From a virus, in IMG/VR virus record IMGVR_UViG_3300009000_000010, positions 1-44,761 of that record: a stretch of 44,761 nucleotides of DNA; one strand, 5' to 3'. The translations under genes and the position numbers were made by a program. Position 1 is the stretch's first letter. Each line of letters opens with the position of its first letter. Under the pieces are notes generated by a model, which saw nothing but the letters and a program-made list of their open reading frames with translations, did not search any database and had not been told where the DNA came from. Positions 5,760 to 31,289 of this stretch are shown piece after piece.

Positions 5760-5834
5760 GCCCTGTTCGTCTAGTGGTTAGGACACATGGTTTTCATCCA
5801 TGCAACAGGAGTTCGATTCTCCTACAGGGTGCCA
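5760..5834 (+). tRNA. tRNA-Glu(TTC)
   Basis: 75 nt cloverleaf with encoded CCA. Anticodon loop TTTTCAT between CATGG and CCATG; T-arm GGAG TTCGATT CTCC. The acceptor stem has one G-U pair at 1-72. It starts about 10 nt after the -10 box at 5745-5750. Confidence 0.95.
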
Positions 5835-5911
5835 GGCCTGTTAGTTCAGTTGGTTAGAACGCTGCCCTGTCACGGCAGAGGTCAGGGGTTCGAGTCCCCT
5901 ACAGGTCGCCA
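5835..5911 (+). tRNA. tRNA-Asp(GTC)
   Basis: 77 nt cloverleaf with encoded CCA, beginning at the base after the CCA of tRNA-Glu (zero spacer). Anticodon loop CTGTCAC between CTGCC and GGCAG; T-arm AGGGG TTCGAGT CCCCT. Confidence 0.95.
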
Positions 5912-5920
5912 TTTTTGGTA

Positions 5921-5928
5921 TATAAATA
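5921..5928 (+). promoter_or_regulatory. late promoter TATAAATA
   Basis: Exact consensus box just after tRNA-Asp; the start codon at 5940 is 11 nt downstream, implying a leader of about 6 nt. Confidence 0.75.
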
Positions 5929-5939
5929 CCACTAGTATT

Positions 5940-6113
5940 ATGAAAACGTTGAAATCACAAGATGTAATTGACCTTCTGCAAAAGAAGATTAGATTGAAAA
6001 AAGAACTCCGTTCTGCAAAGAAAGAGGGAGACCAATCTTCTGTTACTGAATGTGCCACAAAAATTAAACAAATAGAAACAAAATTATCTCAGTCACCATT
6101 GTCAAAATCCTAA
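5940..6113 (+). CDS. small helical hypothetical protein
   Basis: 57 residues, Lys/Glu-rich and probably one long helix or helical hairpin (VIDLLQKKIRLKKELRSAKKEG, CATKIKQIETKL). A longer in-frame reading starting at 5787 runs through both tRNAs and is rejected; ATG 5940 follows the late promoter. I do not recognise it. Expressed late, so possibly a virion or assembly protein. Confidence 0.65.
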   Translation: MKTLKSQDVIDLLQKKIRLKKELRSAKKEGDQSSVTECATKIKQIETKLSQSPLSKS

Positions 6114-6116
6114 ATA
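6109..6116 (+). promoter_or_regulatory. late promoter CCTAAATA
   Basis: The box overlaps the TAA stop of the 57-residue gene. The next gene (6144) has a leader with a TAGGAGA ribosome site. Confidence 0.65.
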
Positions 6117-6143
6117 GTACTATACAAATTTAGGAGATTACCT

Positions 6144-6527
6144 ATGGCATGGGCAGATGAAATTGCAACTTTGAACGATAACATCGCAGAGACGCAAAAA
6201 CTAAAAGATTGGATAAACGGTGTATCAAGAGAGTACTCACTTGGTGCTGATGTTGATGGAACTGTAGAGTATGAAGTTAGAACAGCTGCAGGAAGGGATG
6301 GTTTCTTCGCAGATTGGAGAACTGATAATCCTACTGCATCAGCGTCTTCAACTGGATTAGAGTTAGCTACTTTTACTGCATGGGATGAATGGAATGGAAC
6401 AGACTTCACATCATATGATGCAGAAAAGACCACTGAATTAACTAATCAGATAAATGCATTAACTACAGATAGAGACGATTTACAATCAAAAGTTGACGAT
6501 GGAACCATCGTTGATGCAGGTTTATAA
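6144..6527 (+). CDS. hypothetical late protein
   Basis: 127 residues, acidic. Helical ends (residues 1-30 and 95-120, the latter coiled-coil-like: TTELTNQINALTTDRDDLQSKV) flank a middle rich in Thr, Ala and aromatic residues (FFADWR, FTAWDEWNGTDF). No signal or membrane segment. Preceded by a late promoter and a good ribosome site. Composition suits a small virion structural protein, but I recognise no family. Confidence 0.7.
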   Translation: MAWADEIATLNDNIAETQKLKDWINGVSREYSLGADVDGTVEYEVRTAAGRDGFFADWRTDNPTASASSTGLELATFTAWDEWNGTDFTSYDAEKTTELTNQINALTTDRDDLQSKVDDGTIVDAGL

Positions 6528-6529
6528 GA

Positions 6530-6547
6530 AATAAATAACCATAAATA
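6530..6547 (+). promoter_or_regulatory. tandem late boxes AATAAATA and CATAAATA
   Basis: Two late-type boxes (6530-6537 and 6540-6547) upstream of the ligase-like gene at 6584, with an AAAAGGTG ribosome site between. Which box is used cannot be told. Confidence 0.55.
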
Positions 6548-6583
6548 GTAGTATTACATCGAAAAAGGTGATATACTACTATT

Positions 6584-7792
6584 ATGGCAGTCAAAAATTT
6601 ACATTTAGAACACCTAGAAGACGAAATCATTAATAACGGAATTAATGGTGGTCGTGCATCTGTGTACTTTTTATTAAGTCTTCGTGACATGATGAAAGGT
6701 AATGCAAAGAAAGGGTTCAACATGACAGTGAAATGGGATGGTGCCCCTGCAATTTTTTGTGGGAAACATCCTGAAGACGGAAGATTTTTCGTTGCAAAGA
6801 AATCACTATTCAATCAAACACCATTATTTTACACTTCAGAACAAGAAATCAAAGATGCACCTGAACTCTCAGGTGACCTAGAATCCAAGTTTTTAGATTC
6901 ATTCAAATACCTATCCAAACTATCTTGGGGTGATGAAATACTCCAAGGTGATTTGATGTTCACAGAAAAAGATAAGAAAATGATAAAGGACGACTTTGAG
7001 TCCTATATTGCATTCGGGCCTAACACTATAGTGTATCGAGTGCAGACTAATTCTGAATTAGGTAAAAAAATTGCTTCAGCAAAACTAGGAATCGTCTTCC
7101 ATACTACATATAGAGGTGGTACAATAGAAGACCTTTCTGCATCCTTTGGGGCAGATATTTCTAAACTTGGTTCGTCAAAAGACGTATGGATGGATGATGC
7201 AACGTATAAGGATGTTTCGGGCAACTCAACTCTCACAGCAAAGGAGACGGTCAGTTTATCACGCAACCTCACAGAAGTCGGAAAACAATTCCACAAAATC
7301 AAAAAGAAAGACCTCGAAAAATTCAGAGAAGTTCAACGTGCAATAGAAAAGAAAGGTGCAGGTGCAACTTATAAAACATATTGCAATGCACAGATTCGTG
7401 CTGGTATTTTTAAACCAAACTACAACGGATATCTAAAACACTTTGAAAACTACTGGAGAGATAAGGTAGTCGCAAAAGTTAAACTAGAAAAGACTAAGAA
7501 CATCAAACGAGAGATTGGTGAACAGTTATATAATGAACTCAGAGGTTTGAAGTCTATGATTGATGCACTAACCAAATTCCAAGAGTTGATGGTAGTGTCA
7601 AAACAGATTATCATAGAAGGATTAAACAGAGTTAAAGGTATTGGAACCTTTGTTAAAACGTCCACAGGATTTAAAGCAGTAAATCCTGAAGGATATGTTG
7701 CAATTGACCAAGAAGGTAAGGCAGTTAAGTTAGTTGACAGGATGGAATTCAGTCAAAATAATTTTAACGCTGCAAAAAATTGGGATAAATAG
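6584..7792 (+). CDS. ligase-like covalent nucleotidyltransferase
   Basis: 402 residues. The sequence shows hallmarks of the DNA/RNA ligase and capping-enzyme superfamily. Motif I is K-x-D-G at residues 50-53 (VKWDGAPAIFCG), a motif III-like strand is ILQGDLM at 119-125, a motif IV-like element is PEGYVAI at 368-374 and motif V-like lysines lie at 379 and 382. The unusual length between III and IV (about 240 residues, helical) differs from standard ligases. By family knowledge, Lys50 would take up AMP or GMP. Late promoter control and the next two genes (nucleotidyltransferase-kinase, HNH protein) suggest a nucleic-acid end-processing role. Substrate unknown. Confidence 0.6.
   Translation: MAVKNLHLEHLEDEIINNGINGGRASVYFLLSLRDMMKGNAKKGFNMTVKWDGAPAIFCGKHPEDGRFFVAKKSLFNQTPLFYTSEQEIKDAPELSGDLESKFLDSFKYLSKLSWGDEILQGDLMFTEKDKKMIKDDFESYIAFGPNTIVYRVQTNSELGKKIASAKLGIVFHTTYRGGTIEDLSASFGADISKLGSSKDVWMDDATYKDVSGNSTLTAKETVSLSRNLTEVGKQFHKIKKKDLEKFREVQRAIEKKGAGATYKTYCNAQIRAGIFKPNYNGYLKHFENYWRDKVVAKVKLEKTKNIKREIGEQLYNELRGLKSMIDALTKFQELMVVSKQIIIEGLNRVKGIGTFVKTSTGFKAVNPEGYVAIDQEGKAVKLVDRMEFSQNNFNAAKNWDK
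7784..7791 (+). promoter_or_regulatory. late promoter GATAAATA, leaderless start
   Basis: The box overlaps the TAG stop of the ligase-like gene. ATG 7797 follows after 5 nt, so the predicted +1 is the A of the ATG. Confidence 0.65.
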
Positions 7793-7796
7793 TAAT

Positions 7797-8180
7797 ATGG
7801 AACTTAAATCATTCAGAGAAATTTGGGAAGAGATACAAGAAGCAGACTCTATGCAAACTCGTCTGAAGAAAAAGAAAGCATTCCAAAAGAACAAACATAA
7901 GATTCTTGCAAAACGTAAAAAGGCAATGAAGAAGAAGAATCTTGACCCTGCAAAGTTACAGAAACGTGCAGAGAAACAAGCACGTAATATGGTCGCAAAG
8001 AAGATGTTGAAAGACACAGATAAGAGTGACCTAGGTATGAGTGGAAAACAAGCACTAGAAAAGAAGTTAGACAAGAAGAAGTCTGCAATCAAAAAACTCG
8101 CAAAGAAACTTTTACCAATGATTCGTAAAAAAGAACAAATGAAGAATAAAAAACAAGGTGATACGAAAGATGGCGAATAA
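7797..8180 (+). CDS. basic Lys-rich late protein with capsid-targeting-like N-terminus
   Basis: 127 residues, extremely Lys-rich and helical (KKKKAFQKNKHKILAKRKK, KKLDKKKSAIKKLAKKLL). The acidic start MELKSFREIWEEIQEADS ends in I-Q-E followed by Ala at residues 13-16, the (L/I)xE form cut by T4 prohead protease. Removing it would leave a strongly basic DNA-condensing protein, like T4 internal proteins. ATG 7797 lies 5 nt after a late box; an upstream in-frame reading is not needed. It overlaps the next gene by 11 nt. Function is inference. Confidence 0.72.
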   Translation: MELKSFREIWEEIQEADSMQTRLKKKKAFQKNKHKILAKRKKAMKKKNLDPAKLQKRAEKQARNMVAKKMLKDTDKSDLGMSGKQALEKKLDKKKSAIKKLAKKLLPMIRKKEQMKNKKQGDTKDGE

Positions 8181-9474
8181 AAATTTTACAAGTTGGTTAT
8201 CAGAAGCAAAAGGTAAAGGTGCAGTGTTCACCTTTGGTCGATTCAATCCTCCAACTACAGGACATGCAAAGTTAGTAGACAGACTTCAAAAAGTTGCGAA
8301 GGGATACGGTGATGCATTGTTATTTTCTTCACACTCAAATGATAAAGTAAAGAACCCGCTGTCACACAAAGATAAAGTTAAGTATCTAAAAGCATTCTTC
8401 GGTAAACAAGTTAATGTAATAGATGCAGATGTAAAACAGATTTTTCAAATCCTCACCTTCTTACATGACAAAGGTTACACTAAGATTAGAATGGTAGTAG
8501 GGTCAGATAGGGTCAGAGAATTCGATACTATCATCAAAAAATATAACTCAGTAAAAGGTAGACACGGTTTCTATAAGTTTGATGAGATTCAGATAGTCTC
8601 TGCTGGTGAACGTGACCCTGATGCAGATGATGTGTCAGGAATGAGTGCATCTAAGATGAGAGAGTTTGCAGAAAAGGGTGACTTCGAATCATTTAAAGAG
8701 GGAGTACCCAAAACAGGACAACGATTTGCACAGAAACTTTACAAAGATATCCGTAAAGGAATGGGTCTAACAGAAGACTTACAACACCTACCTCAGTACA
8801 TGGTAGAAGATTTGATTACAGAGGGTGTCTATGACCCAGGCATCTTCAAAGCAGTATTCCTTATGGGTGGGCCAGGGTCAGGTAAATCAACTGTGGTGGA
8901 TCAATTAAACCTAGTCAATCTAGGACTTAAGATTGTTAACACCGACAAAGCATTCGAGAACGGTTTAAAGAAAGCAGGACTTGGTCTTGATTTGAGAAAC
9001 ATGGATGCAGACCTAAGAGACCCAATCAGAAGTCGTGCAAAAGAAATTACTGCAAAACAAATGGATGCGTATCTAAGAGGAAGACTTGGTATGGTCTTTG
9101 ACACTACAGGTGCAAAGGCAAGTAAAATTGTATCTTATAAAAACCTATTAGATAAAGCAGGATACGAATACAAGATGGTATTCGTTAACACTTCACTAGA
9201 TTTTGCACAACAAAGAAACTCTGAACGTGCAAGAAAGTTACCTAAAGAAGTGGTAACTGCAGATTGGAATGCATCACAAAAGAACGTAGACTATTTTAGA
9301 AAGTTGTTTAAGAAAGACTTTATTGAGATTCTAAACAACGATGACCACAAGGCATTGATTAAGAAATCGGATGCACTATACGGTAAGATGTTAACATGGA
9401 CAAGTAAGTTCCCTGCAAACAAACAATCACTTGCATGGAAAGAAGCACAATTACTTGCAAAGAGAAGTAAATAA
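8170..9474 (+). CDS. bifunctional HIGH-family nucleotidyltransferase fused to a P-loop kinase
   Basis: 434 residues. Domain 1 (about 16-200) has GRFNPPTTGHAKL (residues 23-35, the (H/T)xGH signature), MVVGSD and SGMSASKMR (156-164), as in NMN/cytidylyl-type transferases. Domain 2 (about 226-400) has Walker A GGPGSGKST at 233-241, a FDTTGA element and a zeta-toxin/polynucleotide-kinase-like helix set. The order matches NadR (adenylyltransferase then kinase) but the kinase looks zeta-like. The N-terminus SWLSE-A and the linker LITE-G resemble prohead protease sites. ATG 8170 follows AAGGTG by 9 nt. Confidence 0.75.
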   Translation: MANKNFTSWLSEAKGKGAVFTFGRFNPPTTGHAKLVDRLQKVAKGYGDALLFSSHSNDKVKNPLSHKDKVKYLKAFFGKQVNVIDADVKQIFQILTFLHDKGYTKIRMVVGSDRVREFDTIIKKYNSVKGRHGFYKFDEIQIVSAGERDPDADDVSGMSASKMREFAEKGDFESFKEGVPKTGQRFAQKLYKDIRKGMGLTEDLQHLPQYMVEDLITEGVYDPGIFKAVFLMGGPGSGKSTVVDQLNLVNLGLKIVNTDKAFENGLKKAGLGLDLRNMDADLRDPIRSRAKEITAKQMDAYLRGRLGMVFDTTGAKASKIVSYKNLLDKAGYEYKMVFVNTSLDFAQQRNSERARKLPKEVVTADWNASQKNVDYFRKLFKKDFIEILNNDDHKALIKKSDALYGKMLTWTSKFPANKQSLAWKEAQLLAKRSK

Positions 9475-9475
9475 T

Positions 9476-10516
9476 ATGTTAGACCTATTAAGAGAAAAGA
9501 TTAGAACTGCACAAGACAAAGATGTAGAGGACAAGAAAGGTACTCAACCTAAAAGGTATTTTGCAAAAGATGCCGAGGGTGATGAGATGTCTAAGTCCAC
9601 TAAAGATAAACGTGCATCTCATTTTGCAACCAATAGTAAGAAAGATGACGATGATGCATCTGCATACAAACCTGCGCCAGGCGATAAGTCTGCAGAAACC
9701 AAACCATCACAGTATACTAAACAATACAAGAAAATGTTTGGTGAAGATGCAGTGAGTGACATCAAAGCAAAACATGCAGATGAGATAGAGAAACTTAAGG
9801 CACGTCATGAGAGAGAACTAGAAGCACTTAAGGGTAGACAGGAAAGACAATCAGACACTGCAAAGTCTAGTGTTGATGCAGAGAAAGAAAGAGAGAAACA
9901 AAGAAAAGAAGTTGACACTCAATCAGAATCAATAGAAGAGGGTAAACTTGTTGCTAATGCATACAATATCATAGATGCACTTACCAGTGCATTTAAAAAG
10001 AGAGTACAAAAAGAGTACGATAGAAATCCTGAGAAAGGAATAGTCATGTTAAATCGTATGGGTGCATTGATTGGTGCAAAGGTCTCTAACAAGATGCAAA
10101 AAGACAACAAACTATTCTTAAAAATGGATATGGATGAAGAAACTATTGAAGAAGGATTTGCAGACAGACAGAGAGAAAAAACTAAGTCTCAACAGAAAGC
10201 ACATCAAAAGGCAATGATGAAGATTGCAAGAAAATCTATCAAAGACTACGAGAAAAGAAATAAAAAGGGTAAAAAAGAAGAGACTGAAGTTGAAGAAGAG
10301 AGAGATTACAAAAAAGAGTATGCAAACTACCATTCTCAACCTGAACAAATCAAAAGACGTGCAAAGAGAAATGAAGCACGTAGATTAATGAAAGACAATA
10401 AAGACATCAAAGGAAAGGATGTTCATCATAAGGATAACAATCCTATGAACAATGATAAGAAGAATCTTTCAGTGGTCACACAAAATTATAATAGAAAAGA
10501 ACCGAGGAATAGGTAA
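9476..10516 (+). CDS. late coiled-coil protein with C-terminal HNH domain
   Basis: 346 residues. A helical start (MLDLLREKIRTAQ) is followed by a polar linker, a coiled coil at about 95-150 (KHADEIEKLKARHERELEALKGRQER) and helical basic segments. The C-terminal HNH nuclease motif (about residues 313-346) has VHHKDNNPMNN and KNLSVVTQNYNR, as in HNH homing-type endonucleases. SESIEE-G and EETIEE-G look like prohead protease sites splitting it into modules. ATG 9476 chosen; an upstream in-frame extension lies within the previous gene. 1-nt overlap with the next gene. Role likely in the virion, inferred. Confidence 0.72.
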   Translation: MLDLLREKIRTAQDKDVEDKKGTQPKRYFAKDAEGDEMSKSTKDKRASHFATNSKKDDDDASAYKPAPGDKSAETKPSQYTKQYKKMFGEDAVSDIKAKHADEIEKLKARHERELEALKGRQERQSDTAKSSVDAEKEREKQRKEVDTQSESIEEGKLVANAYNIIDALTSAFKKRVQKEYDRNPEKGIVMLNRMGALIGAKVSNKMQKDNKLFLKMDMDEETIEEGFADRQREKTKSQQKAHQKAMMKIARKSIKDYEKRNKKGKKEETEVEEERDYKKEYANYHSQPEQIKRRAKRNEARRLMKDNKDIKGKDVHHKDNNPMNNDKKNLSVVTQNYNRKEPRNR

Positions 10517-11247
10517 TGGCAGGAAACAAACACGACAACGGAGTACACGAGATGGGCACAGAAGAAATGAGAAATGCATATCAGGAAGATACGCCTGGGC
10601 AAACAATCGAAGAGTATATTGAAGAGACTCAGAAACTGTTAAAACAACAGAAGAAGAAACACTTCAGTCAAGTGTTTCAAAATCCTCTAAAAGGATTCCC
10701 TTACAACGAAGAGTTTGAAGTAAAACCAATTAATGAAAAGGTAGAATACGTAGAGTATAAGTTTAAAAATAAAGGAGATGCTCAGAAAGCATTAGACTAC
10801 TTTAAAAGTCAACAGTTAATCAAACTAGACATCAACGATGATGGATTAAGTCAGGGTGAACTTACAATTGATGCTGGTAAAAAAGATATGACTAAGTATC
10901 ACAAAGAGGTAATGAGAAAGTTCAAACCAAAGGTTCAAACTCAGGAACAATCAGAAGATAAACTTCCTGATTTAGATGACATCGACAGTGGTCTCTTTGA
11001 GATAGAAGACTTAGAGAGAATGGAAAAACTGCATCAAGAAAATGCAGACAAGTCACTTGCTGCAAAGGCAGAGAAGTCAGGAGTGTCAGTTGGTACACTT
11101 AAAAAAGTTTACAACAGAGGTGTTGCTGCATGGAAGACAGGACACAGACCAGGCACAACTCCTGAACAGTGGGGTCATGCAAGAGTGAATGCATTCCTTG
11201 TAAAAAGAAAGAAGGGTAATCTAAACCACGATACAGATTTAGCATAA
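10516..11247 (+). CDS. late protein with conserved C-terminal domain (DUF5824-like)
   Basis: 243 residues, charged. The C-terminal 60 residues (SGVSVGTLKKVYNRGVAAW, TGHRPGTTPEQWGHARVNAF) match a small conserved domain I recall from T4-like marine phages and large DNA viruses (DUF5824-like; naming from memory). The N-terminal and middle parts are acidic and helical with IEEYIEE and FEIEDLE stretches. It may bind nucleic acid, since the domain begins with a helix-turn-helix-like GVSVGTLKKVY. Overlaps both neighbours by 1 nt (TAATG). No enzymatic motif seen. Confidence 0.68.
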   Translation: MAGNKHDNGVHEMGTEEMRNAYQEDTPGQTIEEYIEETQKLLKQQKKKHFSQVFQNPLKGFPYNEEFEVKPINEKVEYVEYKFKNKGDAQKALDYFKSQQLIKLDINDDGLSQGELTIDAGKKDMTKYHKEVMRKFKPKVQTQEQSEDKLPDLDDIDSGLFEIEDLERMEKLHQENADKSLAAKAEKSGVSVGTLKKVYNRGVAAWKTGHRPGTTPEQWGHARVNAFLVKRKKGNLNHDTDLA

Positions 11248-11786
11248 TGAAAACATTAAAAGAACAAGCATTAGAATCAGTACTCTTAGATTTACAAGAG
11301 ACTAAAACCAACTTTATCGACAACCCATTTAGATTGGGTTCGTTCATGTACTTTGAAACCATCAAAGAAGTTAGAAAACTGGTAGATGAACAGAAGTACA
11401 GACTTACAGAAGTCGATAAACACATCATAGAAACCGACTTAGGTGAATACGAAGTGTATGAGGGTCAGTTAGTAGCACTGGATTGTCCTATGATGGACAT
11501 CGCAGAAGAGGAAGAACCTGAACTCAACAAACCTAAGAAAGGTGGTTCAAAGAAATATTACGTATACGTCAGAGACCCCCAAACAAAAAACATTAAGAAA
11601 GTATCATGGGGTGACACTACAGGACTAAAAGTTAAGATTGATGACCCAAAAGCACGTAAATCATTTGCTGCAAGACACAATTGTTCAACTGCAAACGATA
11701 AGACGAAAGCATCCTACTGGGCATGTCGACTTCCCTACTACGCAAAACAACTTGGTTTGAGTGGTGGTGGCTCATTTTTTTGGTAG
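11247..11786 (+). CDS. late protein with conserved Cys/His C-terminal domain
   Basis: 179 residues. The N-terminus MKTLKEQALESVLLDL resembles the other capsid-targeting-like starts in this block. The C-terminal half (KKYYVYVRDPQ, then ARKSFAARHNCS and YWACRLPYYAK, about residues 103-170) is a conserved small domain I have seen in marine phages and large DNA viruses (DUF5872-like, from memory). The two Cys and one His could bind a metal. Ends in a Gly-rich GGGSFFW tail. Function unknown. Confidence 0.68.
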   Translation: MKTLKEQALESVLLDLQETKTNFIDNPFRLGSFMYFETIKEVRKLVDEQKYRLTEVDKHIIETDLGEYEVYEGQLVALDCPMMDIAEEEEPELNKPKKGGSKKYYVYVRDPQTKNIKKVSWGDTTGLKVKIDDPKARKSFAARHNCSTANDKTKASYWACRLPYYAKQLGLSGGGSFFW

Positions 11787-11787
11787 A

Positions 11788-11794
11788 CTAAATA
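11788..11794 (+). promoter_or_regulatory. late promoter CTAAATA
   Basis: The box lies just after the TAG stop of the previous gene. An AGGAG ribosome site at 11801-11805 precedes ATG 11812. Confidence 0.6.
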
Positions 11795-11811
11795 TTTGAC
11801 AGGAGTTAATT

Positions 11812-12078
11812 ATGAGTAATGTGATAAGTGAATATTGGAAGGATAACAGGAAAGCTGTTATCCGTCTTACAGAAGAAGGGTTTGAAGTAGACCTTTTAAA
11901 AGATACCGTCTTAAAGGAGACACGAAAACTACATGACCATGCAGAGAGTTATGCAGAATCTTGTGCAGAAAATTTTGTTGATGGGGTGTTTGATGTTGAT
12001 GATTCCAATCCTAATAGTATTGGGTACTATGGTTATAACGAAAAAACTGATAACTACTACCCTGAGATAGATGAATAA
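11812..12078 (+). CDS. acidic hypothetical protein
   Basis: 88 residues, acidic, with a helical middle (KLHDHAESYAESCAENFVDGV) and a Tyr/Asn-rich tail (YYGYNEKTDNYYPEID). Strong AGGAG ribosome site and a late promoter upstream; overlaps the cupin-like gene by 8 nt. Unrecognised. Confidence 0.65.
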   Translation: MSNVISEYWKDNRKAVIRLTEEGFEVDLLKDTVLKETRKLHDHAESYAESCAENFVDGVFDVDDSNPNSIGYYGYNEKTDNYYPEIDE

Positions 12079-12355
12079 ACCTTATACTGAAACAATAGAG
12101 TTACAGCACGGAACAGACAGACAATATCTTATTAGAGAGTTTACTGATGAGGTAGATATTGAAGAACTGGTCTGGCACAGAGACAGACAACATAGAAAAG
12201 TGCATGTTTTGTCTAGTGACGGTTGGAAACTTCAAATGGAAGATAGGTTACCTGTCCCCCTTGAAGCAGGAAAAGAGTACTTTATTGGTCAAAATACCTA
12301 CCACAGAGTAATAAAAGGTGAGGGAAACCTCATTGTAAGAATAGAGAATATATAA
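12071..12355 (+). CDS. small cupin-like protein
   Basis: 94 residues, almost all beta-strand: ELVWHRDRQHRKVHVLSSDGWKLQMEDRLPVPLEAGKEYFIGQNTYHRVIKG. WHRD and the later TYHRV resemble the first and second metal-binding motifs of cupins, and the pattern is familiar to me from T4-like marine phages. It lacks the length for a full dioxygenase. The late promoter at 12351 overlaps its stop codon. Activity unknown; it may be a sugar- or metal-binding late protein. Confidence 0.6.
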   Translation: MNKPYTETIELQHGTDRQYLIREFTDEVDIEELVWHRDRQHRKVHVLSSDGWKLQMEDRLPVPLEAGKEYFIGQNTYHRVIKGEGNLIVRIENI

Positions 12356-12358
12356 ATA
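12351..12358 (+). promoter_or_regulatory. late promoter TATAAATA
   Basis: Exact consensus overlapping the TAA stop of the cupin-like gene. ATG 12367 follows after 8 nt, so the leader is about 3 nt and there is no room for a ribosome site. Confidence 0.75.
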
Positions 12359-12366
12359 ATACTACT

Positions 12367-12951
12367 ATGAGTTATAAATCAGAAAACTGGAAAGAGAAAC
12401 TCGAACAAGTTCGATTGTATGGAACCTTTGCTGAACACAAAGAAGGTTCTATAGAAGAGACTGCAGATGACGTTCTCACAAGAGAAATCGAAGAAGAACT
12501 TCGATTAATCGATGAAGAAGAACGAGCAAACATCGATGAAGAAGTCATCCTTGAAGCATCTGCTGGTGAGATGATTGACAAATTATTCAATCTAAAAGGT
12601 GATAAAGACGCTAGTTATGGTGTAGCAAAGATGTTAAACATGACTGGTGTTAAAGTTATCCAACAAATGCAAAAACAAAATCCTCAAGGATTCTTAAAAA
12701 CTGTTCAAGCACTTGGTAGAGATAACAAAATCAAACTTGCAACTAACAATCAGTTAATGAAGATGTTTAAAGATGCAGGTGTAAAACCCCTCAAAGACGA
12801 AGTTGAACCAGTAAAAGAATCAGTAGAAAAGTCTATTGAAAAACTCACAGAAAAAAACATGTTGGGTCGTCTTGCAAAACAACTACAACTCAACGAAACA
12901 GGTAAAGAACAACTATTCAATTACTTTGAAAAAGGGGAATTAAAACAATGA
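12367..12951 (+). CDS. acidic late protein, prohead-core-like
   Basis: 194 residues. The first 63 residues are very acidic and helical (LTREIEEELRLIDEEERANIDEE) and end in EVILE-ASAGEM, an I-L-E/A junction at 61-64 resembling a prohead protease site. The rest is a helical domain (DKLFNLKGDKDASYGVAKML, LGRLAKQLQL). The acidic pro-part resembles T4 scaffold-type proteins. ATGA overlap with the next gene. Structural role is inferred from composition and context only. Confidence 0.68.
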   Translation: MSYKSENWKEKLEQVRLYGTFAEHKEGSIEETADDVLTREIEEELRLIDEEERANIDEEVILEASAGEMIDKLFNLKGDKDASYGVAKMLNMTGVKVIQQMQKQNPQGFLKTVQALGRDNKIKLATNNQLMKMFKDAGVKPLKDEVEPVKESVEKSIEKLTEKNMLGRLAKQLQLNETGKEQLFNYFEKGELKQ

Positions 12952-13274
12952 TTGACGAACTAACAAAAGCACTGATTGAGTCTTCAAGAGAACTTCTTGA
13001 GAAAGGATTAGATAAAGTCAATCCTACTGCAGTGAAGAAAGATTTCGATGACAGAAAAGACAAAGACATCGACAACGATGGTGACACAGACTCATCAGAC
13101 GAATACCTACACAAAAGAAGACAATCAATCTCTAAGGCAATGAAAGACGAAGGTAACAAGTTTACTGGTGCATTGAATGCTGCAAAAGAGAAAGGTGATG
13201 ACACCTTTATGTGTGCAGGTAAATCTTACAAAGTTAAAGACGTAGAAGAAGTTATTAAACAAGAGAGTAAGTAA
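12948..13274 (+). CDS. late protein with EF-hand/dockerin-like loop
   Basis: 108 residues. Residues about 28-52 contain KKDFDDRKDKDIDNDGDTD followed by SSDEYLHKRR, a DxDxDGDxDxxD calcium-loop pattern followed by a helix. I recall this segment from other T4-like marine phage head-region proteins. The flanks are helical and basic. ATGA overlap with the acidic protein upstream; 1 nt before the next start. Calcium binding is an inference from the loop; function unknown. Confidence 0.68.
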   Translation: MIDELTKALIESSRELLEKGLDKVNPTAVKKDFDDRKDKDIDNDGDTDSSDEYLHKRRQSISKAMKDEGNKFTGALNAAKEKGDDTFMCAGKSYKVKDVEEVIKQESK

Positions 13275-13275
13275 C

Positions 13276-14442
13276 ATGAATCTTTGGCAGGAACTCAAAG
13301 AAGAATCAAGAAATCTCGTAGAAAACTACAGAGAACTTGCAAAACATGGCATGGGTACTGAGACTAAGAACTCAATCAAAGTAGGAACAGAGATTGATTA
13401 TTATCGTGCTGACGGTGCTAAGTACATGGGTAAAGTCACCAAGATGACTCCAAAAGGTTACATTGTTAAAGATGATAAGAATGGTAAGAACTACCAGTTC
13501 ACATATCACGATAGAACGAAAGCAAAAAAACTACTCGCAAAAAAGACAGACAAACTTTCTAACATCATCAAAAAGAACACAATCAAAAAAGGTAAGTTTG
13601 CAGGATACATGACTGACGAAGTCGAAGTTCAAGAAGGAACAATGGCAATTGGTATCTTTGACAGCAATCCTGCAGAGAAAAGAAAAGCAATTGCAGGAAT
13701 GCAAAAACTTCTCAAAGGCAAACAAAATGTAAAAGTTGGTTCACCTGAAGGACGAAAGATTGGTGATCAGTTAGAGATGAAATATCTATCAGATGACGAA
13801 CTTGCTGATGATTTCATGAGATCATCAAATAAAAACATGACAATTTCACAACTTCTCAAAAAACATGAGAAAAGACTTGGATTGAAATTCAAAGAAGAAG
13901 TCGAAGAAGTAGTATCAGAGGGGTTTACCTCCAAAGAAATCAAGATGGCAATCGGTGTTGCATCTGATAAACGATATGCAGGTGGTAACTACACTGGTGC
14001 TGTCAAGGCAATCGAAAAGATCAAGAAAGGTTTGTCTAACCACAAACAGGTAGCTGCAGTACTTAAAAGTAAGAACGAAGCAGTATCACCTGAAGGTGAG
14101 AAACCTAAAAATGTTATGGATGCATACAGACAGATGTGGGAAGACGGGCAAAAGTATGCACCTCAGTTAGACGAAGAAGTTGCAAACATCACTGTAGACC
14201 CAAGAAATAAAATACCAACACCTGCTGGACAAAACAAACACTCATTAGAAATTGTAAAACAAGCAAGAAGATTTGGTATCAAAGCATCACAACTAGGTAA
14301 ACACATAAGAATTAAAGGTAATAAGAAGGCAGTTAATGACTTCTTAAGAATAGTTATTGGTAAGTCATCATATGGTGACCCAACAGAAAAGGACACATCA
14401 ACACCTCAGATTGACAAGATGTTGACTAAAGGTTTAAAATAA
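13276..14442 (+). CDS. modular late protein, putative head protein
   Basis: 388 residues, Lys-rich, built of several small domains. A helical N-terminus (MNLWQELKEESRNLVENYREL) is followed by an SH3-like beta segment (VGTEIDYYRADGAKYMGKVTKM, about 37-70). Then come helical modules separated by acidic joints ending in EVQEG (about 117-121) and VVSEG (about 211-215), which resemble prohead protease sites. A C-terminal KH-like strand set ends the protein (FGIKASQLGKHIRIKGNKKA). No enzymatic motif. The modular make-up suggests cutting during head maturation, which is inference. Confidence 0.66.
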   Translation: MNLWQELKEESRNLVENYRELAKHGMGTETKNSIKVGTEIDYYRADGAKYMGKVTKMTPKGYIVKDDKNGKNYQFTYHDRTKAKKLLAKKTDKLSNIIKKNTIKKGKFAGYMTDEVEVQEGTMAIGIFDSNPAEKRKAIAGMQKLLKGKQNVKVGSPEGRKIGDQLEMKYLSDDELADDFMRSSNKNMTISQLLKKHEKRLGLKFKEEVEEVVSEGFTSKEIKMAIGVASDKRYAGGNYTGAVKAIEKIKKGLSNHKQVAAVLKSKNEAVSPEGEKPKNVMDAYRQMWEDGQKYAPQLDEEVANITVDPRNKIPTPAGQNKHSLEIVKQARRFGIKASQLGKHIRIKGNKKAVNDFLRIVIGKSSYGDPTEKDTSTPQIDKMLTKGLK

Positions 14443-14443
14443 T

Positions 14444-14767
14444 ATGAACTTGTTGGAAACATACAAGGAAATGCATCAACTTGAAGAAGCAAGAATTCCT
14501 CAGTATAAACCTACTAAGTTTGAAGGTAAAGAGTTTGACAGAAAGAAAGAAATCAAATCTTTACAGACTATGCAAAAGGCAATTCATAAAGTTGCAAAGA
14601 TGCAAGATAGTATGCAGTATACTGCTGAAACAGGTGGGACTTCTTCAAGAGGAAATCCAAATGCAATATATCAAGGTCTAGTAGATGCTGAACAGGCAAT
14701 ATTTGCTTATATGGGTGGTATCGAAAGAGGAAACTTTGATGGTGTCATTGACATGGACAGAGATTAA
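14444..14767 (+). CDS. small late protein with capsid-targeting-like N-terminus
   Basis: 107 residues. MNLLETYKEMHQLEE-ARI has an L-E-E/A junction at residues 13-16, the same position as I-Q-E/A in the protein at 7797. The remainder is helical (EIKSLQTMQKAIHKVAKMQDSM), then a Gly/Ser/Asn loop and another helix. 1-nt overlap with the next gene. Unrecognised family. Confidence 0.64.
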   Translation: MNLLETYKEMHQLEEARIPQYKPTKFEGKEFDRKKEIKSLQTMQKAIHKVAKMQDSMQYTAETGGTSSRGNPNAIYQGLVDAEQAIFAYMGGIERGNFDGVIDMDRD

Positions 14768-15318
14768 TGGATAGAGTAGACGCAAGATACAAAATCTTTA
14801 AAGAGAAATTAAAGAAACTAGGTTACGTTAAGGACTCTGCAAAGAAAGTCAACAAAGTCATGACAGAGAAGACTGCAGACTTTGGAATGATGTCTGATGC
14901 TGGTAATAAAAAGATTGCACGTGCAGTTGCACAGGCAAAAGACGAAAAAGATTTAAGAAAGAGAATCGAAAAGATTTCTACGATGGCTGGGGGTAAATAC
15001 TCCGAGGCACAAGAAGACGAAGTTATTCAAAGAGCAATAAGTGCATTGGATGACAACGCAATGGGTTCACAAGCGTGGGCCGATAAGAACGTAATGGTTC
15101 AGTTAGGTAACTTTAAAGACTTGACAAAAGACGGTGAAATCTCTACTAATGACAATAAGAAAACTAAGGTCAAAAGAGATGATGCAGTTAAAGTTTATGA
15201 CACATTAATGAAAGTTAAAGCACCTGTTCGAACTAAATATATACAGTTATTACAGAAAGACTCCAAGTCTTTCAAAAAGACATTCAATAGTGTATTGAGT
15301 GTTGCAAACAGATTTTAA
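14767..15318 (+). CDS. helical late hypothetical protein
   Basis: 183 residues, Lys/Asp-rich and helical throughout. A middle segment (DNAMGSQAWADKNVMVQLGNF) precedes an Asp/Asn-rich turn (LTKDGEISTNDNKK) and a C-terminal helical pair (DAVKVYDTLMKV, SKSFKKTFNSVLSVANRF). Starts at the stop of the previous gene (TAATG). No signal, membrane or catalytic motif. Belongs to the presumed head block by position. Confidence 0.66.
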   Translation: MDRVDARYKIFKEKLKKLGYVKDSAKKVNKVMTEKTADFGMMSDAGNKKIARAVAQAKDEKDLRKRIEKISTMAGGKYSEAQEDEVIQRAISALDDNAMGSQAWADKNVMVQLGNFKDLTKDGEISTNDNKKTKVKRDDAVKVYDTLMKVKAPVRTKYIQLLQKDSKSFKKTFNSVLSVANRF

Positions 15319-15329
15319 AGGAGAAAAAA

Positions 15330-15620
15330 ATGGCACTTTGGGGATTATTAGACAACGAAGATTCAAAACCAAAATACCTTAACACCGCTGATAAGGCAAA
15401 CACTTATGGTGTTGACACTGCTGAAGTAACTGCAAATGCAGATTCAGGTGTTGTATCAGAAGGTTGGGCATTAAGAAAAGAAGTTGGTTCAAGAGTACAG
15501 TGGGAGACATTAGTCGCAATGTCTTCAGGTTCAATGGGTTCAGACGTTGCAGACTTTGATGACGATTCAGACGTAGCAACACCTGATGTAGATGACGATA
15601 CTGTATTAGCAGATAGTTAA
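15330..15620 (+). CDS. small conserved virion-type protein
   Basis: 96 residues. MALWGLLDNEDSKPKY, then VVSEGWALRKEVGSRVQWETLVAM and an acidic Asp-rich tail. The pattern MALWG...GW..R..G..R...ETLVA is familiar from T4-like marine phages as a small conserved protein of unknown function. Good AAAGGAG ribosome site. Likely structural, by recollection and position. Confidence 0.68.
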   Translation: MALWGLLDNEDSKPKYLNTADKANTYGVDTAEVTANADSGVVSEGWALRKEVGSRVQWETLVAMSSGSMGSDVADFDDDSDVATPDVDDDTVLADS

Positions 15621-15630
15621 GAGATAAATT

Positions 15631-15894
15631 ATGAAATATAAGTTATTGGCAGGACACGAAGCACTACAAGTTGGTTCAACCAACGGTAGTAACTTCGGTT
15701 CATCAACAGTAGTCAGATTGTACAACAGTGATTCTGCATTTCATGTGGTATCAGTGGAAACATCTGCAAATGTATTAATTGGTTCTATCCATATAGGTGC
15801 AGGTCAATCAATTGACTTACAAAAAGACCCAACTGATGAAGTTTTTTCAGATAGTGCAACTGTTTTTGGAACTCCAGTAGCAACAAACGCTTAG
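15631..15894 (+). CDS. small beta-rich late protein
   Basis: 87 residues, beta-rich and Ser/Val/Thr-rich (VVRLYNSDSAFHVVSVETSANVLIGSIHIGAGQSIDLQKDP). This composition resembles small phage decoration or head-completion proteins. No cysteine, no membrane segment. Placed between two other late genes with short gaps. Function not assigned. Confidence 0.64.
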   Translation: MKYKLLAGHEALQVGSTNGSNFGSSTVVRLYNSDSAFHVVSVETSANVLIGSIHIGAGQSIDLQKDPTDEVFSDSATVFGTPVATNA

Positions 15895-15902
15895 GACGTA
15901 TT

Positions 15903-16343
15903 ATGAAAAATTTTAAAGAATTTGTAACAGAACTTTACAGACCATCAACATTTTTTGGTGCAGGTCTTTCTTCAAAGAAAGTACCATACGATGTAACTGA
16001 TGAAGATGTTAAGTTGACAATCAACGCAATTTTAGGTCACACTGCAGTGTCAGAATTCCTAAATCCAAAGGCCGCAATCGGACAAGTAGAATCTAAACTT
16101 GCACAAGTTGGTATCAACAGAGTACAACATCCTTCAGATGACCCTAGAAACGAAGTTTCCGAAGAGGAATTTTCAGGGTCAGGTGAGACAGTAGTATCGT
16201 TCTCACAGTTTGGTGAAATCATCGGTAAATCCGTTGACACACCCATCGATGAACTAGAAAAGGAAGAAAAAGTTATCGATGTAAAATTCAAGTACGAACA
16301 GTTAGACAACGGAACTTTCAAAGTCTACGGTTCTTTAGTGTAA
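15903..16343 (+). CDS. late protein with T4 internal-protein-like N-terminus
   Basis: 146 residues. The start MKNFKEFVTE closely resembles, from memory, the T4 capsid-targeting sequence MKTYQEFIAE found on T4 internal proteins: Met-Lys, an aromatic, Glu-Phe, a branched residue and Glu in the same spacing. The rest is a globular domain (VTDEDVKLTINAILGHTAVSEFL, then VVSFSQFGEIIGKS and a beta-rich end KYEQLDNGTFKVYGS). Last gene of the block before a strong terminator. Packaging is inferred. Confidence 0.68.
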   Translation: MKNFKEFVTELYRPSTFFGAGLSSKKVPYDVTDEDVKLTINAILGHTAVSEFLNPKAAIGQVESKLAQVGINRVQHPSDDPRNEVSEEEFSGSGETVVSFSQFGEIIGKSVDTPIDELEKEEKVIDVKFKYEQLDNGTFKVYGSLV

Positions 16344-16765: not shown

Positions 16766-16841
<76 letters not shown>

Positions 16842-16872: not shown

Positions 16873-17460
16873 ATGAGAGTCGTAGATACATTAATAGTTT
16901 TCCGTATTCTGAAGATGTTAACCACACCCTTCAATAAACAACCTGCATTCAAATTTGGGTTTATTGATGACAAGGGTAACAGAATTAAGTTCAAACAAGT
17001 TGAAGGTTCTAATCAGAAAGTAGAAAACAATCCTAAGACTGATGAGGAAAAGGCATCCCTTACACCTCTACATCGTCTTGTCTTTAACCTCAAGAAAATC
17101 ATTGAGAAAGTGCCTTTTGGTAAATCTGCATTTGCATCATATGCTGTTGCACTTGCACTACTAAAGGAATCAAATGAACTCAATGACGAACAAATGCAAA
17201 GACTTGAAGAAGAATTTTACCATTGGTTGAAAGACAACGACATGGTAACCACGGACATGATTACAGAATCTGCATTGTTAGATACACTTGAAAGGGGTAT
17301 GTATCGACTCAGAAGAAAATTAACTCAGAACGAATCAGAATATACTCCAAAATCCGAACTCTTTGTAAACAATGAGTATGCACAATACTATGGTGTAACA
17401 GTTTACGCTGGTGTTTGTGAGGGAGAAAGAGTGTTGGTAACTGCAGATGATGTATATTGA
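16873..17460 (+). CDS. conserved T4-like marine phage protein, unknown function
   Basis: 195 residues. The N-terminus MRVVDTLIVFRILKMLTTPF and the segment LHRLVFNLKKIIEKVPFGKS match a conserved hypothetical known to me from T4-like cyanophages, which supports the start codon. Residues 80-160 are helical with acidic stretches; the end (YYGVTVYAGVCEGERVLV) is beta-like. No catalytic motif. Overlaps the PAP2 gene by 14 nt, so the two are probably translated together. Confidence 0.72.
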   Translation: MRVVDTLIVFRILKMLTTPFNKQPAFKFGFIDDKGNRIKFKQVEGSNQKVENNPKTDEEKASLTPLHRLVFNLKKIIEKVPFGKSAFASYAVALALLKESNELNDEQMQRLEEEFYHWLKDNDMVTTDMITESALLDTLERGMYRLRRKLTQNESEYTPKSELFVNNEYAQYYGVTVYAGVCEGERVLVTADDVY

Positions 17461-18208
17461 AGCAATCCAAACCATCAATAATCTGAAGTTCTCAGATTTT
17501 GGTAATCACAAGAAAGTCAAGTACAAAGATATTGAAGTCTTTAGTGGTGACTGGAAAGACATTACATTACCCACACCTCCAAAGAATGATTCAAGACAAG
17601 TCCGTATGGAGCTCGATGAAATCAAAGACATACGAGACAACACAACCAAAGAACAAGAACTAGAATACATCAACACAGATGAGAACCCATACTTCTATAT
17701 TCAAGAATATATGGAGAAGGAAGGGTTAGAGTATGATGAAGAGAGAATGGTTTACTTAGGAGAACAAGTAAGACCCATCATACGACACTACAAGAACATG
17801 TTCGATAGACCAAGACCTTATCAAATTGCAAAGGAACTTGGTATCGACTTTGACAGATATAAAACAGAAACATCGAACACACCATCGTACCCCTCAGGTC
17901 ACACGGTGCAACCTAAGATTGTTGCGAACTATTATGCAACAATATATCCTGAACACAAAGACGGATTCTTTAAGGGTGCAGAAATCAGTGGACTAGGAAG
18001 AGTAAGAATGGGTGTACACTTCCCATCTGATATCGCTGCAGGTCATGAACTTGCAAACAAACTGATGAGGTATCTCAAGTTTGATATGATGGAAGATGCA
18101 CCAGTTAATGCAACTGGTAGTGCAGTCGTAGGGACTGGAAGTGATGTCGCAACATGGAGACCTAAAAAGAAAAGGAAACTCCATGATGTGATGAAACGAT
18201 TCACATAA
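17447..18208 (+). CDS. PAP2-family phosphatase
   Basis: 253 residues. All three parts of the PAP2/acid phosphatase signature are present: K116 with RPRP at 121-124, PSYPSGHT at 146-153, and R185-x5-H191-x3-D195 in GRVRMGVHFPSD. Members remove phosphate from lipids or small molecules using a His nucleophile. There are no transmembrane helices, so it resembles soluble acid phosphatases or haloperoxidases. The Gly/Ala-rich and then basic tail (NATGSAVVGTGSD, RPKKKRK) resembles tails I recall on marine phage head proteins. Substrate unknown. Confidence 0.85.
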   Translation: MMYIEAIQTINNLKFSDFGNHKKVKYKDIEVFSGDWKDITLPTPPKNDSRQVRMELDEIKDIRDNTTKEQELEYINTDENPYFYIQEYMEKEGLEYDEERMVYLGEQVRPIIRHYKNMFDRPRPYQIAKELGIDFDRYKTETSNTPSYPSGHTVQPKIVANYYATIYPEHKDGFFKGAEISGLGRVRMGVHFPSDIAAGHELANKLMRYLKFDMMEDAPVNATGSAVVGTGSDVATWRPKKKRKLHDVMKRFT

Positions 18209-30448: not shown

Positions 30449-31131
30449 TGTACGGATTACAAAATTTAGAAACACGTAAATTTGAAGGGTTGTTTTTTCA
30501 TGCACCTAAAACTGCAGGTTCACTTTTACTGAACTATGTAAAAATGAACTATGGGCATCAATATCGGTTTAGGACACTGCATGGTGTTCTTCCACTCTTT
30601 AATAATCCTAATTTAAAGATGGAAGAGGTTGAAATGCATGACCATGCTCACCTCACAATCGACCAAGCATTTGAACTCTATCCTACACTAGGTGACTGGA
30701 TAGATGAGAACAACATCGATGTGTTCACTATGACACGTGACCCATATGAAAGGTTTGTGTCTTGTCTTCGATTCATTCCAGTGATGATGAATTTAGATGT
30801 AGACGGAACTGGTGTCCCTAAGTTCAGAGGACAGATGAGTGAATCAAGATTCCATCAAGTGTACACTAACATGATTATGTCACCACAGGCACGATGGATA
30901 TGTAGAGACGGTAAACCTTTTGCACGTACCATACATATCAAGGACGTTAGAGGAGAGGTTGCACCCATCTGTAATAATGTGTCTGTAGATTTTACCACAA
31001 AAGTATGGACGAATGAAGATGCATCAAAAAAGATGCTAAATGATTTTATATTACCCAAATTTCCCCTTGACGAACAGACCAAACTGTTTGTACAATGGTT
31101 ATGGAAAGAAGATTTTGATTTGGGGCTGTAG
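30448..31131 (+). CDS. sulfotransferase-family protein
   Basis: 227 residues. [14 protein letters not shown] (residues 16-29) is the 5'-phosphosulfate-binding loop and [16 protein letters not shown] (about 94-109) the 3'-phosphate-binding motif of PAPS-dependent sulfotransferases. Acceptor unknown; phage versions may act on host surface glycans. The last three sense codons and the stop lie inside tRNA-Ala (10-nt overlap). Confidence 0.82.
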
Positions 31132-31197
31132 CTCAGTTGGGAGAGCACCTGCTTTGCAAGCAGGGGGTCGGCGGTTCGAACCCGCCCAGCTCCACCA
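31122..31197 (+). tRNA. tRNA-Ala(TGC)
   Basis: 76 nt with encoded CCA, anticodon loop TTTGCAA between CCTGC and GCAGG, T-arm GGCGG TTCGAAC CCGCC. All stems are perfect. Its first 10 nt are also the end of the sulfotransferase gene. Confidence 0.97.
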
Positions 31198-31201
31198 TGA
31201 A

Positions 31202-31289
31202 GGAGAGGTGCTAGAGTGGTCGAATAGACTGGTCTTGAAAACCAGCGAACCGAAAGGTTCCGTGGGTTCGAATCCCACCCTCTCCGCCA
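31202..31289 (+). tRNA. tRNA-Ser(TGA)
   Basis: 88 nt class II tRNA with encoded CCA. Anticodon loop CTTGAAA between CTGGT and ACCAG; long variable arm CGAACC GAAA GGTTCCG; T-arm GTGGG TTCGAAT CCCAC. Lies 4 nt after tRNA-Ala. Confidence 0.97.

Follow-up and report, generated by a model that had tools for sequence, protein, structure and literature searches.

The window analysed here, the 44.8-kb virus record IMGVR_UViG_3300009000_000010, is a fragment of the genome of an uncultured T4-like phage, in which the genes from position 5921 to 16343 form a block next to genes for replication proteins. Our analysis indicates, with a probability of about 0.78, that this block is a T4-type internal-protein (head cargo) locus of a marine T4-like phage, with enzymes and modular proteins as its cargo. 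Because at least two proteins of this late block, one of them a two-domain enzyme, begin with the address tag by which T4 loads proteins into its head, enzymes probably travel in the virion alongside the DNA, and they may be released into the host as infection begins. The two proteins, encoded by the genes starting at 8170 and 15903 (genes are named by their start positions throughout), can be grouped with the T4 internal proteins, with high confidence, by their predicted targeting signal and probable mode of action; that the whole block is processed head cargo is a wider claim, made with distinctly more reserve, as somewhat better than an even bet. The features that carry the reading are as follows (a hyphen within a peptide marks the predicted cut).

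8170 to 9474, plus strand: tagged two-domain enzyme, HxGH nucleotidyltransferase (residues 1-205) and P-loop kinase of the polynucleotide-kinase type (residues 225-434); PF01467, PF13671, Foldseek
8170 to 8205, plus strand: predicted capsid-targeting sequence MANKNFTSWLSE, predicted cut after E12; homologue matches and alignment, model pLDDT <50 there
8821 to 8826, plus strand: predicted cut E218-G219 (LITE-GVYDPG) between the enzyme domains; [LIV][TQK]E-GVYD in 19 of 19 homologues
15903 to 16343, plus strand: small tagged internal-protein candidate
15903 to 15932, plus strand: predicted capsid-targeting sequence MKNFKEFVTE, predicted cut after E10

Predicted targeting sequences at the N-termini

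In T4, a stretch as short as the ten N-terminal residues of IPIII is sufficient, with residues 4 and 7 serving targeting and residues 8 and 10 allowing processing, and the prohead protease gp21 cleaves after (L/I)xE (PMC9026906); the annotation of T4 ipIII also gives a 10-residue signal. From these determinants we defined a strict tag as hydrophobic residues at positions 4, 7 and 8 plus E at position 10, and we counted it among distinct N-termini of homologues drawn from 80 related loci. A previous reading of the window from its sequence only had listed six capsid-targeting-like N-termini, and all were found at the genes named: MKNFKEFVTE (15903), MELKSFREIWEEIQE-A (7797), MNLLETYKEMHQLEE-A (14444), NFTSWLSE-A (in the ORF from 8170), MNLWQELKEE (13276) and MKTLKEQALE (11247). 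When the T4 determinants and the homologues were considered, the assignment held for 8170 and 15903, in part for 7797 and 14444, and failed for 11247 and 13276. In the window itself only 15903 (at the exact position) and 8170 (shifted by 2) have the strict tag among the six. Among the homologues it was found in 14 of 14 N-termini for 15903 and 27 of 29 for 8170, the remaining two of which have the tag behind a 4-residue extension, compared with 2/10 for 14444, 1/10 for 7797, 1/22 for 11247 and 0/10 for 13276; a tag was rejected for the last two genes. No strict tag was found in 111 N-termini of the flanking genes outside the block, and the P value of the difference between block and flanks (2.5e-8) overstates its significance because the homologues are not independent.

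The alignment of 15903 showed that K2, F4 and E10 are invariant and F7 is conserved in at least 90%, and that residues 11-20 are hypervariable with insertions and deletions; with its tag residues fixed and the ten residues behind them freely variable, the N-terminus looks as a removable tag should. The DNA pattern ATGAARNNNTTYNNNNNNTTYNTNNNNGAR has a single match in the window, at 15903, and none in 100 shuffles. The products of 7797 and 14444 are intermediate, with starts in relatives such as MKTFREFTED and MKSFKEFCET, and MKSFAEYLEE and MKSFKEYLEE in those of 14444; that they are tagged is plausible on these grounds, but weaker. A relaxed motif, M[KRQNT].[FYWL]..[FYW], was enriched in the block (7/88 vs 12/1043) but noisy.

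Cleavage motifs inside the proteins

The internal sites of the same list were all present, namely EVILE-A (12367, E63), SIEE-G and TIEE-G (9476, E155 and E226) and VQE-G and VSE-G (13276, E120 and E215), and most of them occupy conserved positions at module borders; TIEE-G of 9476 does not, and was dropped as a cut site.

9938 to 9943, plus strand: predicted cut E155-G156 (SIEE-GKLV) before a conserved module of 9476; conserved in 25 homologues
10151 to 10156, plus strand: candidate cut E226-G227 (TIEE-GFAD) of 9476, not supported; E in only 6% of homologues

In the homologues of 9476, a Glu stands before the GK(L/Y)V module in 25 of 25 sequences and [LIV]xE in 23 of 25, in 20 distinct contexts, against a background of 1.7%. 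For 12367, [LIV]xE precedes the module in 11 of the 12 homologues having it, and for 13276, [LI]xE was found before NYR and before GT(M/W) in 6/6 homologues each. The sites are therefore kept at module boundaries while the surrounding sequence changes. Block proteins carry gp21-type (L/I)xE motifs at conserved positions, and cleavage there is predicted. The excess of [LIV]xE[AGS] matches over the block as a whole (14 vs 9.0 expected, z 1.7) is weak, and this enrichment of about 1.5-fold was rejected as stand-alone evidence; the head core genes gp21, gp22, gp23 and gp68 are richest, with a 2.1 to 3.6-fold excess of sites.

The nucleotidyltransferase-kinase and its neighbour

The catalytic motifs of 8170 are intact. 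Its structural model has only two low-confidence stretches, residues 1-13 and 202-223, and both predicted cuts lie inside or at the edge of these. Foldseek placed the kinase half nearest to bacterial and T4 polynucleotide kinases, and the nucleotidyltransferase half near NaMN and phosphopantetheine (PPAT) adenylyltransferases. Among the nearest annotated kin of the window, Pelagibacter phage HTVC008M and the Methylophilales phages Melnitz, HTVC008M encodes the kinase as a separate ORF with the start MIPFILKE-GLYDPG, and Melnitz gp18 (650 aa) is a fusion of homologues of 8170 (its N-terminal part), 9476, 10516 and 11247.

6584 to 7792, plus strand: DUF6267 protein, untagged here, tagged in Melnitz gp16 and in L263; PF19782 5e-95

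The DUF6267 protein has the motifs KWDG, EGYV and KLVDR, and its sequence suggests a ligase-like covalent nucleotidyltransferase; Foldseek gave weak matches to DNA ligase IV, T4 Rnl2 and REL1, none below E 0.001. Searches of PDB sequences for this protein and for 8170 gave nothing useful. The family phrog_455 joins DUF6267 with a region resembling the nucleotidyltransferase-kinase.

Probable late promoters and setting of the block

The order of genes in the window is polB, recA, gp41 helicase, the cargo block, primase, nrdA and nrdB. The position between gp41 and primase/nrdA is common to Melnitz, HTVC008M and cyanophage S-SZBM1, and in S-CREM2 the block lies directly upstream of primase/nrdA. 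Despite these replication-gene neighbours the block is probably late, as had been proposed, because the T4-type late promoter box TATAAATA is kept before block genes in relatives (12367 in 15/16, 6584 in 16/25 and 5940 in 12/27) and was never found there upstream of recA or gp41. In the window alone its three occurrences are at chance level, and only the conservation in relatives rescues the promoter reading.

5921 to 5928, plus strand: late promoter box TATAAATA opening the block, directly behind two tRNA genes; exact match, also found in 12 of 27 distinct relatives
12351 to 12358, plus strand: late promoter box TATAAATA ahead of 12367; kept at this position in 15 of 16 distinct relatives

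The boxes of the window (at 12351, 5921 and 2663) begin 15-19 bases before the start codon, and the transcripts would therefore be almost leaderless.

The sequence-only reading had also spoken of an encoded prohead protease. No gp21 was found in the window, which is a fragment; relatives G001 and G002 encode both gp21 and the major capsid protein gp23. G001, the closest, is an uncultured relative of 151 kb (83% identity in 8170) with the same block order as the window, and it encodes gp20-gp23. In relatives of the same lineage, the major capsid protein next to gp21 has the site TLEE-A or TLDE-A. A gp68-like gene adjoining gp21 starts with MKTFASISKELNE-A, near the cargo tag (G001 12710-13018, L090; G002 118710-119012, L104), hinting that the cargo tag could derive from, or mimic, a core protein.

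Proteins detected in virions of relatives

According to published proteomes, the nucleotidyltransferases gp154 (MKNFSSFLTEA) of cyanophage S-CREM2 and gp140 (MRFRQFIIEA) of cyanophage S-SZBM1 were detected by mass spectrometry in purified virions; both are encoded at the same locus as 8170, and both are tagged. An NMNAT of cyanophage S-SCSM1 was likewise reported in virions. In S-CREM2, the tag at its exact position occurs in 7 of 219 coding sequences, against 0.4 expected from shuffles, and none of 500 shuffles reached 7. Five of these seven proteins were virion-detected (Fisher; P = 7.5e-4), a count for which F at tag position 8 was admitted after S-CREM2 gp136 had been seen, and which is 4/6 without F. 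The five are the S-adenosylmethionine (SAM) lyase gp6, gp13, the kinase gp14, gp136 and gp154, none of which has a shell or tail annotation. The virion-detected gp12 has a similar peptide, LRFASFMAEA, at residue 17. In addition, the S-SZBM1 block proteins gp136 and gp139 were detected in virions without a strict tag, and some untagged block proteins may enter heads by other means. That enzymes are targeted in the T4 manner and cleaved at xE is well supported for 8170 and 15903 by the conserved determinants, the virion-detected tagged relatives and the gp21 of close relatives; for 7797 and 14444 it is a weaker, though still plausible, reading.

From these results and by analogy with T4, the following course of events is proposed. 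Late promoters would drive the block although replication genes surround it, and the tag would bind the prohead core during head assembly. A gp21-type protease would then cleave after the Glu of the tag and at (L/I/V)xE sites between modules, freeing enzyme domains inside the capsid. The freed proteins would be packed with the DNA and probably be ejected into the host at infection, in the manner of the T4 internal proteins and Alt, which are injected with the DNA (PMC9026906). The cargo of the window would presumably serve nucleotide or RNA-end chemistry through the nucleotidyltransferase and the polynucleotide kinase (PNK)-like kinase.

Alternative explanations

Several observations weigh against a cargo locus, besides the later admission of F at position 8 and the lack of gp21 in the window. 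About ten block proteins have N-termini that are conserved but are not tags, and most block proteins are untagged, so that the earlier statement that the block encodes internal head proteins was too broad. The tags of HTVC008M are degenerate, and by raw counts per genome the block has no significant excess of xE sites. The virion support is a proxy from S-CREM2 and S-SZBM1, neither of them the phage of the window nor a near relative; the detection of the nucleotidyltransferase in both proteomes rests on only 2-3 peptides, and the DUF6267 relative of S-SZBM1, gp141, was not detected in virions. An ordinary late accessory island, with metabolic or repair enzymes for the infected cell, merely amphipathic N-termini and virion detection by contamination, would agree with the many untagged genes and the few peptides per protein, and the S-CREM2 authors themselves allow for contamination. 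We regard this as improbable, since conservation does not extend past the residues that serve targeting and processing in T4 and the same tag heads at least about 46 unrelated protein clusters among the matches listed in the scan described below. Moreover, the abundant, cytosolic SSB, NrdA/B and RecA are missing from the S-CREM2 virion list, in which the tagged enzymes are present, and this absence of untagged replication proteins argues against contamination.

It is also conceivable, but unlikely, that some or all of the tagged proteins belong to the prohead core or scaffold, as gp67/gp68 do and as IPIII does where it acts in morphogenesis, and are degraded or expelled at maturation instead of being delivered. 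The similar start of the gp68-like protein and the richness of the known substrates gp21, gp22, gp23 and gp68 in sites fit such a role, as do 15903 and 7797, which are small or basic and without a recognised enzyme domain; against it, 8170 has its catalytic motifs intact and its relatives persist in mature virions.

As for the function of the cargo, the sequence gives two candidates, a kit for RNA-end repair and an enzyme of NAD salvage. A NadR-like set for NAD salvage and repair, acting at entry against NAD-depleting defences, is a doubtful though not far-fetched proposal: the HxGH nucleotidyltransferase resembles NaMN adenylyltransferase and is accompanied by a kinase, and the literature names relatives NMNAT, but the kinase half best matches polynucleotide kinases and not the ribosylnicotinamide kinases of NadR-type enzymes. 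RNA end repair fits as well or better because of this PNK-like kinase and the neighbouring ligase-like DUF6267 protein.

Comparison with known systems

The likeness of the tagged proteins to T4 IPI-IPIII and Alt (MKTYQEFIAE) lies in residues 4, 7, 8 and 10, kept at the N-terminus of otherwise unrelated proteins, together with T4-type gp21 and gp23 in relatives and late-type promoters. They differ in that the cargo consists of multi-domain enzymes and strings of small modules with conserved internal xE sites, in that the block lies between gp41 and primase/nrdA, and in that the tags may have 2-4 extra N-terminal residues. The virion NMNAT or cytidylyltransferase proteins of S-CREM2, S-SZBM1 and S-SCSM1 are homologous nucleotidyltransferases from the same locus, tagged in the first two; the window protein, unlike these, is fused to a PNK-like kinase. 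No packaging mechanism is proposed in the consulted passages of the three papers. The head ejection proteins of phiKZ and SPN3US have cargo propeptides cut after Glu by a gp21-related protease, but belong to another phage group and have another motif and no short T4 tag. The polyvalent proteins of phages and plasmids (Iyer et al. 2017, PMC5512222) also string together many small enzymatic and other domains, and an ART-PolyVal domain stands behind the same tag in L281; there an embedded peptidase releases the domains, whereas for the block the prohead protease, acting in trans, would do this. Polyvalent proteins are single polypeptides; the window genes are split, and Melnitz gp18 fuses four of their homologues.

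The tag is that of T4 and is known; the enzyme and modular cargo and the marine spread appear unreported in the literature searched, which also yielded no description of a T4 targeting sequence from marine T4-like phages, subscription journals being mostly outside the search. If correct, the reading would account for the NMNAT-like proteins, kinases and SAM lyase that recur in cyanophage virions, which the papers left as cargo or contamination. It would also make cargo predictable from sequence alone in uncultured viruses, and the phages that infect very abundant marine bacteria would come with an arsenal that works ahead of phage gene expression.

The tag beyond the window

We scanned viral contigs blindly with a DNA pattern for MK(S/T)FK(E/K/Q)Fx.E (L209-L288). 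Among the matches listed, the tag is the very start of 76 of 77 complete ORFs, and the at least about 46 clusters include ART-PolyVal, HD_4 (L251), an RlpA-like DPBB (L221) and DUF6267 proteins. Of 25 tagged contigs tested, nine have gp21 and the identical nine have gp23; neither gene was found in the others, which are mostly short fragments, two being of 71 and 95 kb. When residues 7 and 8 were exchanged in a control pattern, the whole collection yielded 119 matches, of which 78 also carry the true tag (with F at 8) and 41 are swapped only. This control is not a clean null because even the 41 mostly start small ORFs (MKTFKQMFDEEM...); when the 78 are scaled for how often F stands at residue 8 (3/127), a rough estimate is thousands of true tags vs 41.

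The chances seem evenly balanced that aquatic and other T4-like phages share a general cargo delivery, in which one portable ten-residue tag would load dozens of unrelated enzymes, several of them polyproteins diced by the prohead protease in the capsid, and a host-disarming cocktail would arrive with the genome. The enzymes named under this proposal are SAM lyase, nucleotidyltransferase-PNK, ligase-like DUF6267, HD hydrolase, ADP-ribosyltransferase and methyltransferase. Relatives of the SAM lyase S-CREM2 gp6 have near-T4 starts (MKTFQEFMVE, MKTYKEFMQE), 24 of 39 being strict (L129-L208), and the case suggests, by analogy with T4 IPI, anti-restriction delivery. No match to the pattern was found among relatives of the S-CREM2 kinase gp14 in viral contigs.

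Some further observations were made on these sequences. The SAM lyase family, with its near-T4 tag and its virion-detected member S-CREM2 gp6 (L005 3837-5081), is a candidate injected anti-restriction enzyme. Four tagged genes lie close together in L271, and a variant start with tag residues 7 and 8 swapped, MKTFKQMFDEEMTTAADAGIPQDTKDMGPK, is found on a family of proteins of about 54 residues (L329-L443). Peptides like the arm of the major capsid protein after cleavage (GFTGAAAP-GP-AG-DP, APTNSVG, EDAPVNATGSAVVGTG) are present in further proteins that are small or of cargo type, namely S-CREM2 gp160 (L002 32343-33236), L209, L254, L285 and the C-terminus of 17447-18208 in the window. S-CREM2 gp160 matches the major head protein family phrog_696, and a search with its peptide found no other phage.

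Other genes of the block

The remaining genes of the block are listed below.

5937 to 6113, plus strand: small ORF (58 aa) that comes first in the block; the start given in the ORF list, 5787, falls within the tRNAs
7797 to 8180, plus strand: Lys-rich basic protein with the tag-like start MELKSFREIWEEIQE-A; most homologues MKxF-like, with a later xE-A site
9476 to 10516, plus strand: modular low-complexity protein with a C-terminal HNH-like region; HNH_3 1.7e-4 (below the Pfam cut-off), phrog_4590, phrog_3041
10516 to 11247, plus strand: module protein with DUF5824; PF19141 2.9e-17
11247 to 11786, plus strand: conserved protein with the start MKTLKEQALE, kept but not a tag; phrog_7595
12367 to 12951, plus strand: modular acidic protein, predicted cut E63-A64 (EVILE-ASAG, 12553-12558); [LIV]xE conserved before the module
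12948 to 13274, plus strand: protein with an EF-hand-like DKDIDNDGD segment common to other cargo-type families; phrog_22379, phrog_4359
13276 to 14442, plus strand: modular protein, variable N-terminus ending in [LI]xE-NYR, sites E120-G and E215-G
14444 to 14767, plus strand: protein with the tag-like start MNLLETYKEMHQLEE-A
14767 to 15318, plus strand: conserved block protein, untagged; 0/18 strict
15330 to 15620, plus strand: block protein, untagged; phrog_11617, the phrog of S-CREM2 gp158
15631 to 15894, plus strand: block protein, untagged; phrog_19805

The two families matched by the 12948 protein also match S-SZBM1 gp139, which was detected in virions. The window has five tRNA genes (Glu, Asp, Thr, Ala, Ser) at 5760-5911, 16766-16841 and 31122-31289, of which two directly precede the block (5760-5911) and one closely follows it.

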